Part shown: positions 3,263 through 11,466 of the stretch, one piece after another
Layout of the letters: each line of letters starts with the position of its first letter
Position numbering within the stretch: the first letter of the stretch is position 1
Assembly: GCA_013215025.1 (NCBI GenBank)
Contig: JABSRR010000062.1
Span: forward strand, 1 to 12,301
Source: Pseudomonadales bacterium
GTDB taxonomy: Bacteria; Pseudomonadota; Gammaproteobacteria; Pseudomonadales; DT-91
Length of the DNA stretch: 12,301 nucleotides
Direction of reading: 5' to 3'
Program-made: the position numbers and the translations under genes
The notes under the pieces: model-generated
Told to the model about the DNA's origin: nothing
The model's input: only the letters and a program-made list of their open reading frames with translations
Databases searched by the model: none

Positions 3263-3280
3263 ACAGTTTAAAAAAACTGT
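3263..3280. repeat. Inverted repeat just upstream of the phosphoesterase gene
   Basis: ACAGTTT (3263-3269) and AAACTGT (3274-3280) flank AAAA, ending 13 bases before the ATG at 3294 and touching its ribosome-binding site. It could be a repressor operator or an mRNA hairpin limiting translation; the sequence alone cannot decide. Confidence 0.4.
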
Positions 3281-3293
3281 GAGGGCCTTTGCT

Positions 3294-4115
3294 ATGTCAG
3301 CCTATTATCAACAGCAATATTTAAACACTCATAAAATCAAAGCCAATGCCGTATGGATTTCTGACATTCACCTTGGCAACAAGGACTGCAAAGCCGAATT
3401 TTTATTGGATTTGTTAACTCGCCTTGAATGTAAGACTCTCTACTTAGTTGGCGACATTATTGACATGTGGTCGCTGAGCAAGAACTTTTATTGGCCTGAG
3501 CAACATAATAAAATTATTCGTAAGCTGATGAAGATGGCTAAGTCAGATTGCCGCGTCATTTATATACCTGGCAACCATGATATGAACTTTCGCGATTTTG
3601 TCGGCGAGAAATTTGGCGAGATTGAAGTTCACCAGCAAGCCATTCATATAACTGCCGACAAGCGCAAACTATTGGTTATCCATGGCGATGAGCTTGATAA
3701 CGTAATTAGATTTAATCGTGTCATCAAATGCATGGGTGATCTCGCTTATGATTTACTGCTATTCATTAATCGATTCAATAATAAGATGCGAAAAAAGCTT
3801 GGCTTCAACTACTGGTCCTTAGCAACGTATATTAAAAATCGCGTCAAAAATGCACAAGCGGCGATTAACTGCTTTGAGCAAGCCGCCATGCAATTGGCTA
3901 AAAAACAACATCTAGATGGTGTTATATGCGGCCACATCCATCATCCAAACATACGACAAGAAAATGGAGTATTGTATTGTAACGACGGCGATTGGATCGA
4001 AAATTGTACGTTTATGTTAGAAGATGATGCTGGATGGTTAGAAATTATTCACTGGTCTGATATTGCAAAGCGCGAAAAAGCAATAAAACTTAATAGCATT
4101 CACCACGCCGCGTAG
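3294..4115 (+). CDS. LpxH-like metallophosphoesterase (calcineurin superfamily, COG2908-type)
   Basis: The 273-residue protein carries the complete two-metal phosphoesterase signature: D24-x-H26 in SDIHLG, D54 in VGDIID, N94-H95 in GNHD, H130 in VIHGDE, and H214/H216 in CGHIHHP. Order and spacing fit proteins commonly labelled UDP-2,3-diacylglucosamine pyrophosphatase. However, true LpxH has GNRD at the third motif, and this protein has the ordinary GNHD. It is also about 30 residues longer than LpxH, with a basic segment around 160-185 that may contact membranes or nucleic acid. I therefore do not call it lpxH; its phosphoester substrate is unknown. ATG at 3294 is preferred over the in-frame GTG at 3279, because GAGGG lies 8 bases before the ATG. 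It converges with the kinase gene, leaving 2 bases between stop codons. Confidence 0.88.
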   Translation: MSAYYQQQYLNTHKIKANAVWISDIHLGNKDCKAEFLLDLLTRLECKTLYLVGDIIDMWSLSKNFYWPEQHNKIIRKLMKMAKSDCRVIYIPGNHDMNFRDFVGEKFGEIEVHQQAIHITADKRKLLVIHGDELDNVIRFNRVIKCMGDLAYDLLLFINRFNNKMRKKLGFNYWSLATYIKNRVKNAQAAINCFEQAAMQLAKKQHLDGVICGHIHHPNIRQENGVLYCNDGDWIENCTFMLEDDAGWLEIIHWSDIAKREKAIKLNSIHHAA

Positions 4116-4117
4116 CA

Positions 4118-6934
4118 CTAAAGCTTTGAGTATTTATCGATCAGCTGCGTTAGGGCATCTAACTTAATGGGCTTTTCTAGAAAATCTTGCATACCTGCCG
4201 ATATCGAGCGTTGCTCATGCTCCTCAAACACATGCGCGGTTAATGCAACAATGGGCGTAGCCTGATGATGCTTTACTTGCTGCCATTGCTGAATTGCCGC
4301 AGCGGCCTCAAAGCCATTCATAATCGGCATTTCGCAATCCATTAAGATCAAATCGTAGGTTTCTTTTTTTACCGCATCAACGGCTAATTTACCGTCAGAC
4401 ACAAGCTTATAATCAACGTCCAAAATCTCCATCATCTTACTGATTACACGTCGACTAACATCATTATCCTCGGCGATCAGTATACGTGGCTTTTGATACA
4501 TTAAGCTTTGTTGCTGACGTTGCGTATCTAGCAAATTGACCAAAGATGTTTGTATTAAGCGCTGACTGACCGGCTTGGTTAACACCATATCAATACCGGC
4601 CTGCTTACATTCGTCCATACTGGGTGCTGGAGAAAATCCTGCCAACATGATGACTGCCGGCAGATGACTAGCGCTCTCTCGTATCCTACGTATAACCTCA
4701 ATCGCTGGCATATTAGGGATATCGTTATCGATGATGATAGCATCAAACGGCTGCTGTAAATTATCTTTCGCACGGAATAACGCTAACGCCTCAGTGCCAT
4801 CATAGACTTCTTTAGACTCTAAACCCCAGCTTTGCGCGGCTGCACGCAGAACCCGTGAGTAGGTGTGATTATCATCAACGATCAATAAACTTTTTGCCTG
4901 TAAGGAGGCACTATCAAACACGCTATTATTGATCGACATTTGGGAGACAGGCAGATATAAGGAAAAACCGAAACTACTACCCTCACCGATTTGACTGTTA
5001 ACATACAAGCGACTATCAAGTTGCAATAATAGCTGCTTCACCAGCTCAATCGATGACTCATTGCCCTGAATTGCCTCTAAACGTTGATGCTGATTCAACT
5101 TTTCAAGCAAGGATGACTCAATGCCGCGTCCGGTATCTTCGATGGTAAAGAGAATTTTCTCGGGCTCTTGTGGGTCACTCTCAGCACGCAAAATAATATG
5201 ACCCTGCGAAGTTGCCTGCACCGCATTTTCTAACAACTCAACTAAAATTGTTCGCAGGTAAAAACTGTTGCCAACCAAAATAGCCTGTATATTTGGATCA
5301 ATATCTAAAATTAATTCTAAGGCGCGCTTTTTTATATCATTACTGAAACCCTCAACACATTGCTCAATCAAGTAATGAATTTCAAACGGCGCTGTCTCAA
5401 TATATTCACTTTCTTGAAACGATTTAGTGCGATGGTAAATATCGGTAATTTTATTCAATACGCTATGCGCAGATTTTTCAATACCTTCAATATGCCGCTG
5501 TAGTTCCTCATCACCTGTCGCAGTATTTTTTATAATTTCAGAGGTGCCAATAATGGCGCTCATTGGGGTGCGTAAGTCTTGGCTTAGCTGGCTAAATACC
5601 TGCTGTTGGGCCTTATGCTTCACCTCATTAATTTGCAATAGCTGTTGATTATGTTGCCGGTGGCTGTAGATACTTTTCTGCAGCCAATACAAACAGTAGG
5701 CCATTATCACCAAATCCCACAGCAGCCAGGCTAATGGAATGGGACTAAGGATCAAATAATAATTAAACTCCGAGCGCTCATACAATAATGCAAAAAACAT
5801 AAATGCGGCTGTAAATAAGCGTGATACAAATATTGTTGAGGCAATCAAGCTTTGTGATTTCTTTGCTGCATAGCCACTGGCAACAATAAACAGCGGCATA
5901 CTGACCACAAATAAAAACCAGGTATAAAGGTCAGGCTGATCAACCGCTAACAATAAAACTACATACAGTACTGAACTGATTATCATTGCATAAATAATCA
6001 GCTTATCAAAAATGCCCAAGCAGCCTAACAGCCTTAAATATTCGCGGACTAGCAATAGACCATTGGAATTCGCCAGAAGTGTAAATAAGTATATCGCAAA
6101 CAGCATATAGCCATGGTATTCACTGAACCATGATTTTTGCAGCACATAGCTGATTGCCAAAATATATGCCATGCAAATTGTATAATTGGCAAAGAAGAAA
6201 AACAGCCACGATTTTTTATCAATCGAGATACTGTAAAACACCATCGACAGTAACAGTATCATACCCAAACCCGAACTCAGGTAGGCCGCTTCAATCGCAC
6301 GCGATTGCAACACCGACTCAGGCCTTAGCAACTGTATATCAGTATTTATATATGGCTCTGTTGGCAGCGACAATAAAAATACGCTGGTACTGTTGCTGGG
6401 CAATAACAGCGGATAATATACCCGCGCCTGACCTTCGTTAATGATTCGCTGCAAGGGCGTTAGACTCTGCAGCTGACCCGCTTGATAGATGGCTTGGTAC
6501 AACTGCAACTCGCCATGCTCTGTTGGCTGCAGCGACAACCATAGGTCTGTGCTTACTGCCAACTGGTTGTTAAGTGCAAACCGCAACCACAGCGGATTTA
6601 AACTAGGGTCTAGCCTGGCAAGTTGATCGCTATTTTCGAGATCTAATGGATAGAACTGATGTTTTAACGGCGCCTCGAGTAATGTCTGTACCGAGCTCAG
6701 CTGAGCTGCATCTATTGCAGGCGGCTCAGCTAAAACGTCCACTGCGCTGCTCAGCGAATAATTGATATTGGGATCGGCTGATTTGATTTGAATAACTGAT
6801 GCAGCATGGCTTAGCTGCACAGCCATGCAGCCAAGCACTAAGCCTATGAGCCACAGGCTGAGCTGGATAATGGATCTATTATGCTTGCTCTCGTTCAATT
6901 GCACGCCAAGCGATGTCCTTACGGTAAAATGCAT
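4118..6934 (-). CDS. retS: RetS-like hybrid sensor histidine kinase (7TMR-DISM, degenerate kinase core, two receivers)
   Basis: The 938-residue protein has a signal-like hydrophobic stretch (21-45), a periplasmic 7TMR-DISMED2 domain (about 60-205), seven membrane helices (218-419), a HisKA/HATPase core (440-665) and two receiver domains (680-800 and 816-935). Length (P. aeruginosa RetS is 942), architecture and the position after purD match RetS, which restrains GacS and hence the Gac/Rsm switch between motile and sessile life. The H box reads SQDLRTP, so the phosphoacceptor histidine is Q452. The G2 ATP lid (GNESSIELV, 624-632) has lost its glycines, although N570 and DTGRGI (600-605) persist. 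Receiver 1 has D736 and K787 but A765 in place of Thr/Ser. Receiver 2 is complete (D866, T899, K921). The start is uncertain: ATG 6934 overlaps purD by 56 bases, while GTG 6904 and TTG 6898 are alternatives that keep the signal sequence. Confidence 0.9.
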   Translation of the reverse strand: MHFTVRTSLGVQLNESKHNRSIIQLSLWLIGLVLGCMAVQLSHAASVIQIKSADPNINYSLSSAVDVLAEPPAIDAAQLSSVQTLLEAPLKHQFYPLDLENSDQLARLDPSLNPLWLRFALNNQLAVSTDLWLSLQPTEHGELQLYQAIYQAGQLQSLTPLQRIINEGQARVYYPLLLPSNSTSVFLLSLPTEPYINTDIQLLRPESVLQSRAIEAAYLSSGLGMILLLSMVFYSISIDKKSWLFFFFANYTICMAYILAISYVLQKSWFSEYHGYMLFAIYLFTLLANSNGLLLVREYLRLLGCLGIFDKLIIYAMIISSVLYVVLLLAVDQPDLYTWFLFVVSMPLFIVASGYAAKKSQSLIASTIFVSRLFTAAFMFFALLYERSEFNYYLILSPIPLAWLLWDLVIMAYCLYWLQKSIYSHRQHNQQLLQINEVKHKAQQQVFSQLSQDLRTPMSAIIGTSEIIKNTATGDEELQRHIEGIEKSAHSVLNKITDIYHRTKSFQESEYIETAPFEIHYLIEQCVEGFSNDIKKRALELILDIDPNIQAILVGNSFYLRTILVELLENAVQATSQGHIILRAESDPQEPEKILFTIEDTGRGIESSLLEKLNQHQRLEAIQGNESSIELVKQLLLQLDSRLYVNSQIGEGSSFGFSLYLPVSQMSINNSVFDSASLQAKSLLIVDDNHTYSRVLRAAAQSWGLESKEVYDGTEALALFRAKDNLQQPFDAIIIDNDIPNMPAIEVIRRIRESASHLPAVIMLAGFSPAPSMDECKQAGIDMVLTKPVSQRLIQTSLVNLLDTQRQQQSLMYQKPRILIAEDNDVSRRVISKMMEILDVDYKLVSDGKLAVDAVKKETYDLILMDCEMPIMNGFEAAAAIQQWQQVKHHQATPIVALTAHVFEEHEQRSISAGMQDFLEKPIKLDALTQLIDKYSKL

Positions 6935-8162
6935 CCTGCCATTGTATCTGAGCCACCTGTTGATAGGCTAATTCTGCTGCCTGACTGACAGACTCGCCAA
7001 GCGCGGTAGCACAGAGTACGCGCCCACCTGATGTGACAGTTTGATCTGACTGCAGGCTCGTGCCTGCATGAAACACTTTTTGCACCGCTGTTGCACTCGG
7101 AATACCGCTAATAGGCAAACCTTTGTCATAGCTACCGGGGTAACCACCCGCAGCCATCACCACGCCAACCGCAGCGCGCGAGTCCCACGCGGTATCCACG
7201 CCGGCTAATTCACCGGCCACCGCCGCCTGACATAGCGCCACTAAGTCTGACTGTAGCCGCATCATAATTGGCTGCGTTTCTGGATCACCAAAACGGCAGT
7301 TATACTCAATCACCTTCGGTGAACCGTCAGCTGCGATCATCAGCCCCGCGTATAAAAATCCGGTATAGTCATTGCCTTCAGCCGCCATGCCGGCAACCGT
7401 TGGCTCAATCACTTCTTGCATAATACGCTGATGCACGGCAGGGGTCACAACCGGTGCTGGCGAGTAGGCACCCATGCCGCCCGTATTTAAACCGATATCA
7501 CCCTCACCCACACGCTTGTGATCTTGGCTGGTTGCCATCGGCACAATATGCTTGCCGTCAACAATCACAATAAACGAGGCTTCTTCGCCGGTCAGAAATT
7601 CTTCAATCACCACGCGACAGCCCGCCTCGCCAAAGGCATTGCCCGATAGCATGTCACGAACCGCCGCCTCTGCCTCAGCCAAAGTTTCTGCCACTATCAC
7701 ACCTTTACCGGCAGCAAGGCCATCCGCTTTAACAACGATCGGCGCGCCTTGCTGACGTAAATAGGCCAGTGCTGGCTCGACTTCAGTAAAGTTTTGGTAT
7801 GCCGCCGTCGGTATATTATGCCGCGCCAAAAAGTCTTTGGTAAATGCCTTAGAGCCCTCTAACTGCGCCGCACCCTGCGACGGGCCAAAACAAGCAAGCC
7901 CCTGCGCCTGAAAAAAGTCGACGATGCCGTCAACCAATGGCTGCTCAGGCCCAACAATCGTCAAGCCAACCTGTTGAGATTTGGCAAAGTCAGCCAATGC
8001 GGCAAAATCATCGCCAGCAATTGCAACATTCTCTAAACCTGGCTCTAACGCGGTACCTGCATTACCTGGCGCCACAAACACCGTATTTACCTGCGCCGAT
8101 TGCGCTGCTTTCCAGGCTAAGGCATGTTCGCGCCCGCCACTACCAATCACTAAAATATTCAT
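6879..8162 (-). CDS. purD: Phosphoribosylamine-glycine ligase (GAR synthetase)
   Basis: The 427-residue product (E. coli PurD has 429) joins glycine to 5-phosphoribosylamine using ATP, the second step of de novo purine synthesis in the cytoplasm. It begins with the Rossmann-like VIGSGGREHALAWK (residues 5-18), has the PEQPLVDGI stretch (72-80), the ATP-grasp loop VVKADGLAAGKGVIV (143-157) and the metal/ATP site EYNCRFGDPETQ (286-297). The start at 8162 is set by the family N-terminus MNILVIGSGG; upstream in-frame sequence to 8267 lies inside purH and is not part of the protein. It follows purH by 28 bases, so the two form an operon. The kinase reading frame begins before its stop codon, suggesting that the kinase is cotranscribed. 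Confidence 0.97.
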   Translation of the reverse strand: MNILVIGSGGREHALAWKAAQSAQVNTVFVAPGNAGTALEPGLENVAIAGDDFAALADFAKSQQVGLTIVGPEQPLVDGIVDFFQAQGLACFGPSQGAAQLEGSKAFTKDFLARHNIPTAAYQNFTEVEPALAYLRQQGAPIVVKADGLAAGKGVIVAETLAEAEAAVRDMLSGNAFGEAGCRVVIEEFLTGEEASFIVIVDGKHIVPMATSQDHKRVGEGDIGLNTGGMGAYSPAPVVTPAVHQRIMQEVIEPTVAGMAAEGNDYTGFLYAGLMIAADGSPKVIEYNCRFGDPETQPIMMRLQSDLVALCQAAVAGELAGVDTAWDSRAAVGVVMAAGGYPGSYDKGLPISGIPSATAVQKVFHAGTSLQSDQTVTSGGRVLCATALGESVSQAAELAYQQVAQIQWQDAFYRKDIAWRAIEREQA

Positions 8163-8190
8163 ACAGCCGTTCTCTACCTCGTTGCTAGGC

Positions 8191-9759
8191 TTAATGGCGG
8201 AAATGGCGCATGCCGGTAAACACCATTGCCATACCAGCTTCATCTGCTGCTGCAATGACCTCTTCATCGCGAATCGAACCGCCTGGCTGAATCACGCAGC
8301 TGATGCCGACACTGGCGGCATTATCAATACCGTCACGAAATGGGAAGAAAGCGTCTGAGGCCATGCATGAACCGGCCACGCTTAAACCTGCGTGCTCAGC
8401 TTTTATCGCCGCGATGCGCGCTGAGTTTACGCGACTCATCTGACCGGCGCCGACACCGATGGTGCGGCCATCTTTACCATACACAATGGCGTTTGATTTG
8501 ACCATTTTCGCAACTTTCCAGGTGAATAATAAGTCGCGAATTTCATCCGCTGTGGGCTGGCGCTGAGTGACAACGTTTAGCTGGGCTTCGGTGATCACGC
8601 CAAGATCACGATCCTGCACCAGCAGCCCGCCATTGACGCGCTTAAAGTCAAACTCTGCCGCGGCATCTTGCCACTCACCAGAGGCCAATAAGCGAACATT
8701 TTTCTTTTCCGCAACTGCAGCTTTTGCTGCTTCACTGATGCTAGGCGCAATAATCACTTCAACAAATTGTTGATCGCAAATCGCCTGAGCCGTTGCAGCA
8801 TCAAGCTCTCGATTAAACGCAATAATGCCGCCGAAAGCCGACTCAGTGTCGGTAGCGAAGGCTTTTTGATAAGCTGACAAAATATTATCGCACACTGCCA
8901 CACCACAGGGGTTGGCATGCTTAACAATGACGCAGGCCGGCTCGGCATACTGCTTAACCGTTTCTAACGCTGCGTCTGTGTCAGCAATATTATTGTACGA
9001 CAGTGCCTTACCCTGTATTTGCTGCGCTGTGGCAATCGAGCCTGCCGCGGGTGCGTGCTCGACATAAAATGCACTGCGCTGATGAGAATTCTCGCCGTAA
9101 CGCATATCTTGTTGCTTGATAAATTGCAAATTGATAGTACGCGCAAAATCATCGTTACCACCGGGCACCTGATGACCAAAATAGTTAGCAATCGCGCCAT
9201 CGTATGCAGCGGTATGCTCATAAGCTTTGATCGCCAGATTAAAACGCGTTGCCAAAGAAGTAGCGCCATTATTTGTCTGCATTTCAGCAATGATATCTGC
9301 ATAATCACTGGCATTTACGACAATATTCACGTGCGCATGATTTTTTGCCGCCGCACGCACCATAGTTGGCCCACCGATATCAATATTTTCTACCGCATCG
9401 GCTAAGCTGCAGTCAGGGTTGGCGACTGTTTGCTCAAACGGATAGAGGTTAACCACAACCATATCAATCGCATTGATACCGTGCTCAGCCATCACCGACT
9501 CATCTTGTCCGCGCCGGGCAAGAATGCCACCATGCACTTTGGGGTGCAGGGTTTTGACTCGGCCATCCATCATCTCCGGAAAGCCAGTGTAATCTGACAC
9601 TTCGGTCACCGCGAGACCGTTTTGCTGCAGTAGGCGGAAGGTGCCTCCTGTAGATAATAGCTCAACGCCTTGTGCGAGCAATGCTTGGGCAAATTCGACG
9701 ATGCCAGATTTATCTGAAACACTGATTAATGCGCGTTTAACCGCAACCAGATCGGTCAT
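8191..9759 (-). CDS. purH: Bifunctional AICAR transformylase / IMP cyclohydrolase
   Basis: The 522-residue product (E. coli 529) performs the last two steps of purine synthesis: formyl transfer from 10-formyl-tetrahydrofolate to AICAR, then ring closure to IMP. The MGS-like cyclohydrolase domain (about 1-145) includes [22 protein letters not shown] and [15 protein letters not shown] (66-80). The transformylase domain (about 200-522) includes RYGENSHQ (220-227), the catalytic KHANPCGV (K280, H281) and [14 protein letters not shown]. In most homologues the YGEN motif is followed by PHQ; here the proline is S225. GGAG stands 7 bases before the ATG. A hairpin (9778-9797) lies between fis and this gene and may sit in its leader. 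Purine-dependent control is likely in general, but I could not identify a PurR box. Confidence 0.98.
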
Positions 9760-9840: not shown

Positions 9841-10224
9841 TTATAGCATGCCGTATTGTTTTAGTTTTTTGCGCAAGGTGCCGCGATTAAGACCCAGAAT
9901 ATTTGAAGCCTTGGTTTGATTTTTGCGGGTGTATTGCATCACCGCTTTCAATAAAGGCTCTTCTACTTCAGCCAACACCATTTGGTACACATCAACCGCT
10001 TTTTGACCATCTAAATCTTTAAAATAGGTATCCATCGCCGCTGCAACCGACTCTCGAATCGACTGCGCATCGGCCAGTGGTGAGTCTGACTGATTGGCCG
10101 CCTGTAGTGCACGCTCTTGCTCTAATCGTTGCTGCGCCTGACGCTCTTTCGCTAAACGCTCTTGTTTCTTTCGTTCAAACGCTTTGCGATCCAGTTCAGC
10201 TAGGTCGAAAACTTGATGTTTCAT
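9841..10224 (-). CDS. fis: Fis family nucleoid-associated regulator with extended N-terminus
   Basis: Residues 56-127 match the core of Fis: [50 protein letters not shown], and the helix-turn-helix [15 protein letters not shown] at the C-terminus. Fis is a dimeric DNA-bending protein that shapes the nucleoid and activates stable RNA promoters in fast growth. Usual length is about 98-106 residues; this one has 127. The first about 45 residues are replaced by a highly charged Lys/Arg/Glu/Gln-rich helix ([19 protein letters not shown] and on), predicted to be coiled-coil, in place of the mobile beta-hairpin arms that E. coli Fis uses to activate DNA invertases. The start at 10224 has AGGGTGA about 5 bases upstream and no later Met precedes the core, so the extension looks real. 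It follows dusB by 32 bases, the classic dusB-fis operon. Confidence 0.93.
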
Positions 10225-10256: not shown

Positions 10257-11255
10257 TTAATGAATAGATGCTGCAATATCTGTCGCTGGCTCAGTTAATG
10301 CCGCGACAAACTGCAGCTGCGCTTGCAGTGAATCAAGCGCGTTAAATTGTTTGCTGATAGCCCGATCCATATTTAGCTGTTGCAGATACCAAACCATATG
10401 TTTTCTTGCAAAGCGTAAGCCCAAGTAGTCACCATAGAAGCTATGCAAAGCTTGAAGATGCGTGCTCATAACCCGCTGCTTTTCAGCAAAGCTGGGCTCG
10501 GTAATCGTTTGCTGTTGCAAGGCTTGACTGATTTGTTGAAAAATCCATGGCCGCCCTTGCGCTCCCCGACCCAACATCACGCCGTCTACGCCAGTCTCGG
10601 CTAAAATAAGTAAGGCTTTTTCGACTGAGCCAATATCGCCATTTGCTATCACCGGAATAGATATTGCCTGCTTAACCTCGGCGATGGTCTGATACTCTGC
10701 ATGACCGTTAAAACGCATCGCACGGGTGCGGCCATGAATGGCCAGCGCCTGCACACCAGCCTGTTCAGCAATTTTACCAATGGTAACCGCATTTTTACTC
10801 TGTTCATCCCAGCCGGTGCGAATTTTCAAGGTTACCGGAATAGCGTGCTCTGCCATGGCCTCAACCACCCGGTTCAAAATGGCAGCCACTAAGGCCTCGT
10901 CTTTGAGCAGAGCAGAGCCAGCCGCGCGTTTACAGACTTTTTTCGCCGGACAACCCATATTGATATCCACAATCTCAGCGCCGTGAGCCACTGCCGCGAC
11001 AGCAGCCTGACATAGCATGTCGGGGTCATAGCCAACAATTTGCATACTATTCGGCAAGGTCTGATGAGCAACCGTTTGTAAACGCTGAGTGGACTTTCGA
11101 CTTTGCCAAAGCTCGGTATCGGCAATCAGCATTTCTGAAGTGGTGAGACCCGCGCCATATTGCTGACAAAGCTGACGAAAAGGCACATCAGTAACCCCAG
11201 CCATTGGCGCCAATAGGGCTTGAGAAGGAAGAGTGTGTGAACCTATATGGATCAT
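10257..11255 (-). CDS. dusB: tRNA-dihydrouridine synthase B
   Basis: The 332-residue FMN enzyme reduces specific uridines in the tRNA D-loop using NADPH. Visible landmarks are LLAPMAGVTDVPFR near the N-terminus, INMGCPAKKV with catalytic C102, VTLKIRTGW (K144), AIHGRTR (H174), IPVIANGDIGS (200-210) and the phosphate-binding MLGRGAQGRPWIF, followed by the helical C-terminal RNA-binding domain (LRFARKHMVWYL). The start at 11255 gives MIHIGSHTLPSQALLAPMAG, matching the length of homologues (E. coli DusB has 321). An upstream in-frame TTG at 11318 adds 21 residues unlike the family. The ribosome-binding site before 11255 is poor. The gene leads the dusB-fis pair and is separated from the DUF3426 gene by 284 bases, so it probably has its own promoter. 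Confidence 0.96.
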   Translation of the reverse strand: MIHIGSHTLPSQALLAPMAGVTDVPFRQLCQQYGAGLTTSEMLIADTELWQSRKSTQRLQTVAHQTLPNSMQIVGYDPDMLCQAAVAAVAHGAEIVDINMGCPAKKVCKRAAGSALLKDEALVAAILNRVVEAMAEHAIPVTLKIRTGWDEQSKNAVTIGKIAEQAGVQALAIHGRTRAMRFNGHAEYQTIAEVKQAISIPVIANGDIGSVEKALLILAETGVDGVMLGRGAQGRPWIFQQISQALQQQTITEPSFAEKQRVMSTHLQALHSFYGDYLGLRFARKHMVWYLQQLNMDRAISKQFNALDSLQAQLQFVAALTEPATDIAASIH

Positions 11256-11271
11256 TAGCCAAGCGTTTGTT

Positions 11272-11466
11272 ATGGGTATAAAGATTGGTACAACATCTGG
11301 TGAGATACTGCGCAGCAATCCGCTTGATCAGATTGTGCAAAAATTCAGCAGCTCACTCAGGGGGTGGCTATCATACCGCCAGAAAAACCAAGATGGTAGT
11401 GTTGAACAGACAGAAACTGTATATTTTTTCTACAATGTAAATATGCCGCCGAAATCGCGCATATAA
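11272..11466 (+). CDS. Doubtful small ORF antisense to the dusB leader (64 aa)
   Basis: A plus-strand frame from ATG 11272 to TAA 11464-11466 encodes 64 residues with a balanced composition (contains LRGWLSYRQKNQDG and TVYFFYNVNM). It fills most of the gap between dusB and the DUF3426 gene, and its stop lies inside the left arm of the palindrome at 11460-11491. There is no good ribosome-binding site, no recognisable promoter and no family I know. It may be a chance frame, a remnant or an unrecognised small gene; I lean towards chance. Confidence 0.22.
   Translation: MGIKIGTTSGEILRSNPLDQIVQKFSSSLRGWLSYRQKNQDGSVEQTETVYFFYNVNMPPKSRI

Follow-up and report, generated by a model that had tools for sequence, protein, structure and literature searches.

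RetS and GacS form a model for the control of one kinase by another. According to PMC5992135, RetS of P. aeruginosa restrains GacS in three ways, by phosphate taken onto its second receiver domain REC2 (mechanism 1), by a Thr-dependent phosphatase activity (mechanism 2) and by blocked autophosphorylation (mechanism 3), while its own HATPase domain is degenerate, has no G-boxes and leaves the protein unable to autophosphorylate (Francis et al. 2018). The Discussion of that paper calls it an intriguing question why RetS uses several mechanisms, and PMC4866733 describes the RetS phosphorelay residues as dispensable or not fully required, according to the genetic background. A second related system is DivL of Caulobacter crescentus, described in PMC4211667 as a pseudo-histidine kinase with a substituted acceptor (Tyr550) that regulates another hybrid kinase, retains weak binding of an ATP analogue, has no phosphatase activity and senses phosphorylated DivK (DivK~P). 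Here we describe a retS orthologue whose product has Gln in place of the phosphoacceptor His, encoded on the minus strand at positions 4118..6934 of a 12,301-nucleotide stretch of DNA, the window, from contig JABSRR010000062.1 of a Pseudomonadales bacterium (GCA_013215025.1). The RetS variant without a phosphoacceptor His is new, while the pseudokinase nature of RetS and a substituted acceptor of the DivL type were already known.

The product of the gene, a hybrid pseudo-histidine kinase of 938 amino acids by the open reading frame (ORF) list and by domain and locus comparison, resembles P. aeruginosa RetS (6dk7/6dk8; PMC5992135) in its HisKA-HATPase-REC-REC architecture, its degenerate HATPase, its phosphatase Thr and its REC2 Asp. 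P. aeruginosa RetS differs in retaining the H-box His, in reading DSGHPF in the G1 region where the window protein reads DTGRGI, and in keeping a partial G2 sequence, GSHLGL, where the window protein has none. HisKA (residues 442-500, 37.7 bits against a Pfam cut-off of 26.9), HATPase_c (residues 559-662, 45.0 bits against 26.4) and both receiver domains all scored above their cut-offs and the motif changes therefore sit inside recognisable domains. The solved structures closest in sequence to the kinase core were RetS 6dk8 and 6dk7, followed by the RetS-GacS complex 7n0e, and an AlphaFold2 model of the protein (mean pLDDT 76.8, pTM 0.42) was matched to 6dk7 by Foldseek with a probability of 1.00. 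These matches and the gene order described below bear out the name RetS given in an earlier sequence-only reading of the window, and one relative (P0009) carries the label RetS at the Joint Genome Institute (JGI).

Residue 452, encoded by a CAA codon at 5579..5581 (minus strand), is Gln in the context QLSQDLRTPM. Six relatives on other contigs (P0002-P0007), 48-65% identical to the window protein, share SQDLRTP, so that Gln occurs at this position in 7/7 members of the clade; five long relatives were 48-53% identical across 96-100% of the query. The residue was followed through an alignment of 173 sequences, made up of 150 loci (some redundant or without purD linkage) and 23 database proteins, in which position 452 was H in 160, Q in seven, R in three (P0009-P0011), N in one (P0014), T in one (L176) and S in one (L184). 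Mapping the H-box residue of aligned orthologues on the tree had been proposed in the sequence-only reading, and the seven Q proteins, one of them named Sinobacterium sp. by NCBI, formed a single clade with full support. In the family of the window (f1, six genomes) the other genus had a His-bearing RetS-like protein in four of its five genomes (G013, G055, G088, G142), purD-linked in three of the four, and no RetS-like protein was identified in the fifth (G116). A canonical H-box together with GxGLG was found by pattern in 92/92 general kinases of the same search (P0029-P0120), a count that leaves out 13 intermediate proteins (P0016-P0028).

The trees call for at least two losses of the His, and for three if the Q and R/N types are separate. 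One loss may underlie both the Q and the R/N types, as this was not rejected by the approximately unbiased (AU) test (p 0.221) and a quick tree put Q, R and N on one side of a branch with a support of 53; a tree constrained to have Q outside R/N scored above the free tree (p 0.681). A single origin for every loss was unsupported for family f30, both members of which lie elsewhere on the tree, with a long-branch warning attached. A second profile search, in which 7,991 candidates were scored, gave no further His-less RetS among the 120 matches listed, the R and N types of the first search falling outside that list, and added one RetS-like protein (P0121) with the His present. No title on a His-less RetS was found in the literature on RetS or pseudo-histidine kinases, a survey with subscription papers mostly outside its coverage, so that absence from print is not shown.

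The ATP-lid stretch that follows G1 (residues 606-632, 5039..5119, minus strand) contains no F-box and reads GNESSIELV at the GxGLG position. The window RetS thus has neither of the two features expected of an active histidine kinase, a phosphoacceptor His and a GxGLG lid, and the earlier view that it would be unable to autophosphorylate agrees with the absence of these motifs. The loss of G2, which had been taken as a mark of this lineage, is real in the window protein but is not specific to it: none of 115 distinct purD-linked RetS proteins matched GxGLG and none the F-box pattern, while DxGxG was present in 13/115 and His at the H-box in 112/115. Names from Pseudomonas, Stutzerimonas or close genera account for 70/118 linked loci and the motif counts are weighted that way; many RetS proteins of the Pseudomonas/Stutzerimonas type keep a near-miss, GGxLGL. 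As a control on the pattern, GxGLG was matched in all 92 general kinases and in four unlinked hybrid kinases. Sister proteins that still bear the His (P0008, P0012, P0013, P0015, L108/L109, L126, L137) are also without GxGLG and the simplest order is therefore that the lid was lost first and the His later. Pseudokinase status predates the Gln lineage, and the event specific to that lineage is the loss of the His in an already kinase-dead protein. An origin of the pseudokinase within the Gln lineage is ruled out by the 115/115 purD-linked proteins that have no GxGLG or F-box, and the proposal that RetS had newly become a committed pseudokinase here fails on the same counts, on the His-bearing sisters and on P. 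aeruginosa RetS, already degenerate according to PMC5992135.

Conservation within the Gln clade was uneven along the protein. Mean pairwise identity was 0.90 in DHp helix 1 (residues 442-470, 5525..5611, minus strand), 0.75 in helix 2 (residues 476-505, 5420..5509, minus strand), 0.69 in the CA domain, 0.75 in REC1 and 0.79 in REC2, and was lower for the membrane part (0.39) and the sensor (0.33). The helix that lost the acceptor is therefore the most constrained of the parts compared. Thr456 (5567..5569, minus strand), equivalent by comparison to the phosphatase residue T428 of P. aeruginosa RetS as described in PMC5992135, and REC2 Asp866 were kept in 7/7 members, and Thr456 was also kept in the R- and N-type relatives. 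D453, N570 and DTGRGI (residues 600-605) are present in the window RetS and, like Q452 with its CAA codon, T456 and GNESSIELV, were confirmed where the sequence-only reading had placed them. In four HisKA proteins examined by Willett and Kirby (PMC3510030) the acidic residue beside the His serves kinase activity and a Thr or Asn serves phosphatase activity; under this rule D453 is no evidence for phosphatase activity and Thr456 is. The acidic-x-x-Thr pair that had been read as a phosphatase signature therefore holds for its Thr and not for its acid. An acidic residue (Glu or Asp) beside the H-box His was found in 108/115 purD-linked RetS proteins, none of which has a canonical G2 box, and this is unexplained by the Willett and Kirby rule. 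The same paper reports that CrdS without its His still dephosphorylates its regulator, with a half-life of 2.6 min compared with 0.7 min for the wild type and 53.5 min for the regulator alone.

From these features the window RetS probably does its work although it neither catalyses nor accepts phosphorylation at the H-box, and is predicted still to restrain GacS. The residues for mechanisms 1 and 2 and the DHp-CA core for mechanism 3 are present, so that all three could operate, and Gln452 would remove only the phosphate at the H-box of RetS itself. By way of the DHp helix RetS would pair with GacS, whose autophosphorylation it would block; the GacS receiver would be dephosphorylated through Thr456, and phosphoryl groups from the GacS His would move onto RetS Asp866. 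Phosphate on REC2 would have no His at the usual site to return to, and REC2 would become a one-way sink. Any function given to the window RetS is deduced in this way from a sequence that is itself well supported.

Several observations weigh against restraint of GacS by a His-less RetS. The His that is kept in nearly all of the G2-less proteins suggests that it usually matters for something unexplained, and PleC is quoted in PMC3510030 as needing its His for phosphatase activity. The stem branch of the Gln clade is long (1.05 in one tree and 1.25 in another) and function may have shifted along it. Linkage to purD was seen within the clade for the window only, and no match to RsmY or RsmZ (Rfam RF00166 and RF00195) was found across the genome. 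The GacS structure 7z8n (E 5.3e-17) was nearly level with the RetS entries for the kinase core. The periplasmic sensor region (residues 40-205, 6320..6817, minus strand) had a weak 7TMR-DISMED2 hit (E 0.0062) below the cut-off and no match among PDB sequences at E up to 10; relative P0004 carries PF07696.

Among the alternatives, the one that survives best is that the phosphatase was lost along with the His, leaving mechanism 3 either alone or together with the phosphate sink. In some HisKA proteins the His has a part in phosphatase activity (PMC3510030), and the Gln clade altered several DHp helix positions together; both would fit such a loss. We regard it as unlikely, as Thr456 is invariant in 7/7 members and is shared with the R and N types, and CrdS retained most of its phosphatase activity without the His (PMC3510030).

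Less probable again is a change of partner: repurposed in the manner of DivL, the protein would use its DHp domain to sense another kinase or a phosphorylated receiver in place of GacS. DivL offers a precedent, having Tyr at the site, neither kinase nor phosphatase activity and a response to DivK~P (PMC4211667), and the long stem branch of the Gln clade would be consistent with a new role. DivL belongs to another family with another locus and sensor, whereas the window protein has Gln at the acceptor site and is a hybrid with two receivers. Against a new partner, the RetS locus is retained, a GacS with kinase motifs is encoded in the same genome and REC2 is highly conserved in the Gln clade. 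DivL is not known to have a REC2.

A relocated acceptor, with a His of helix 2 phosphorylated in trans by, for example, GacS, is possible but highly improbable. His481, His490 and His501 (window 5432-5494) are invariant in 7/7 members of the Gln clade and occur at those positions in 0/12 sister rows. Position 490 is Gln in 11/12 of these rows and His in none, position 452 is His in 8/12 and Gln in none, and Q452/H490 accordingly look like a His/Gln swap. Self-phosphorylation is not expected of a protein without an ATP lid, however, and we know of no HisKA protein that uses acceptor positions equivalent to 481, 490 or 501. Relaxed selection or decay of the gene is given equally little weight: the long stem branch and the several motifs lost are what a decaying gene might show, but the five long relatives remain 48-53% identical over nearly the whole query and no part of the protein is better conserved than the H-box helix. 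A misread or misassembled codon 452, conceivable for a window drawn from an assembly of 353 contigs, is ruled out by Q at the same site in six other protein clusters.

Restraint of GacS by a RetS without its H-box His can be set beside other lineages of purD-linked RetS in which modules are missing. In f34 (L132-L136) the phosphatase Thr was replaced at 5/5 loci, by Gly in three and by Ser in two, the latter of which may still work. At both loci of f2 (L203/L204) Gly replaces the Thr, and REC2 has lost its Lys and its MP motif. Only one receiver is present in the proteins of f17, f38 and f12 (L205-L208, L200), whose loci gave no second one by tblastn. L202 of G092 likewise has a single receiver; it comes from a short contig that carries no purD. 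The receiver missing from all six proteins is REC2, where mechanism 1 takes place in P. aeruginosa. The REC2 Asp was read in 109/115 proteins, the blanks being L205-L208, L200 and L126, the last cut by a contig end. The H-boxes of f30 (L176, L184) read INTQIGTP or VNSKVSAP, with His and acid lost in L176 and His, acid and Thr all lost in L184. The mechanisms that match the missing modules are presumably gone in those lineages. The parts of RetS are separated in nature where Thr, REC2 or the whole H-box was lost. The suggestion that the window RetS represents a natural separation of mechanisms is right in that the parts do separate, but Thr-less or REC2-less lineages show this better, the Gln clade having kept both T456 and REC2.

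It is conceivable, though we would not yet favour it, that RetS is a pseudokinase across the order whose three restraints on GacS were dismantled separately, and that the DHp-CA fold is what remains, which would make direct blocking of GacS both ancestral and indispensable. On the same tentative footing, the Gln clade would have abandoned phosphorylation of the H-box entirely and kept a one-way phosphate sink and the Thr, with others lost in f34, f17/f38/f12, f2 and one member of f30. Natural RetS proteins that have lost single modules would allow each mechanism to be tested in products of selection instead of engineered mutants, and the Gln clade offers a natural experiment on the importance of the different RetS parts. 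The puzzle is why 112/115 G2-less RetS proteins keep the His and 108/115 its acidic neighbour, and what let the Gln clade drop the His.

The genome of the window (2.78 Mb, 353 contigs, 96% complete) was searched for Gac/Rsm partners, as the sequence-only reading had advised, and a GacS fragment, GacA and three CsrA genes were found. The GacS fragment lies at a contig start and scored 685 bits, under the equivalog cut-off of 890. By eye it contains TSHEIRTP, NAIKFT, DTGIGM, FEAFSQ, GGTGLG, a receiver and an Hpt-like HKLHGAC, and these kinase motifs and the Hpt-like C-terminus distinguish GacS/BarA from the window RetS. GacA was above its curated cut-off. Thirteen comparison genomes were taken from the f1 sister genus and from the lineages with unusual RetS, except f34. 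A GacS-like kinase was present in 13/13 (best match 649-867 bits, none above 890), and GacA was over the cut-off in 10/13, near it in two and cut by a contig end in one.

The window gene is a member of the retS locus, with the order dusB (10257..11318), fis (9841..10224), purH (8191..9759), purD (6879..8267, directly upstream, ORF as listed) and retS, all on the minus strand, and each of the four neighbours exceeded its curated NCBIfam cut-off. We take fis-purH-purD-retS to be the order in P. aeruginosa as well. In 118/152 loci fetched, purD was followed on its own strand by a RetS-like ORF, directly adjacent in 102, at 0.4-2 kb in 11 and at 2-6 kb in five, and the linkage was seen in other Pseudomonas species among them; for P. 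aeruginosa itself it is assumed. The remaining 34/152 loci had no purD within the available stretch, mostly with a flank of about 1.5 kb or a short contig; some had several kb of flank (10 kb in L073), and linkage to purD is therefore not universal. Four of these 34 (L172, L182, L185, L201) were ordinary hybrid kinases.

The first ATG of the window retS, at 6934, falls within purD, and the database copy of the protein (P0001, 928 amino acids) starts ten codons later, at a GTG. Residues 205-425 (5660..6322, minus strand) are presumed transmembrane helices from the AlphaFold2 model, and 7TMR-DISM_7TM was not detected by Pfam in the protein. The degenerate CA (HATPase) domain, which keeps N570 and the G1 sequence DTGRGI, spans residues 515-660 (4955..5392), REC1 with Asp736 and Lys787 spans residues 681-805 (4520..4894) and REC2 with Asp823, Asp866 (the D858 equivalent), Thr899 and Lys921 spans residues 815-935 (4130..4492), all on the minus strand. 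A VIA-align result consisted mostly of receiver domains and gave little information on the sensor or lid, and a plasmid search returned no record spanning 80% of the query. A calcineurin-like phosphoesterase gene at 3279-4115 is convergent with retS and ends 2 bases before the retS stop; it is LpxH-like, yet far under the LpxH-type cut-offs. Elsewhere in the window, a cobalamin riboswitch aptamer (RF00174) was identified at 1084-1235 on the minus strand with 45.3 bits against a gathering threshold of 31.5.
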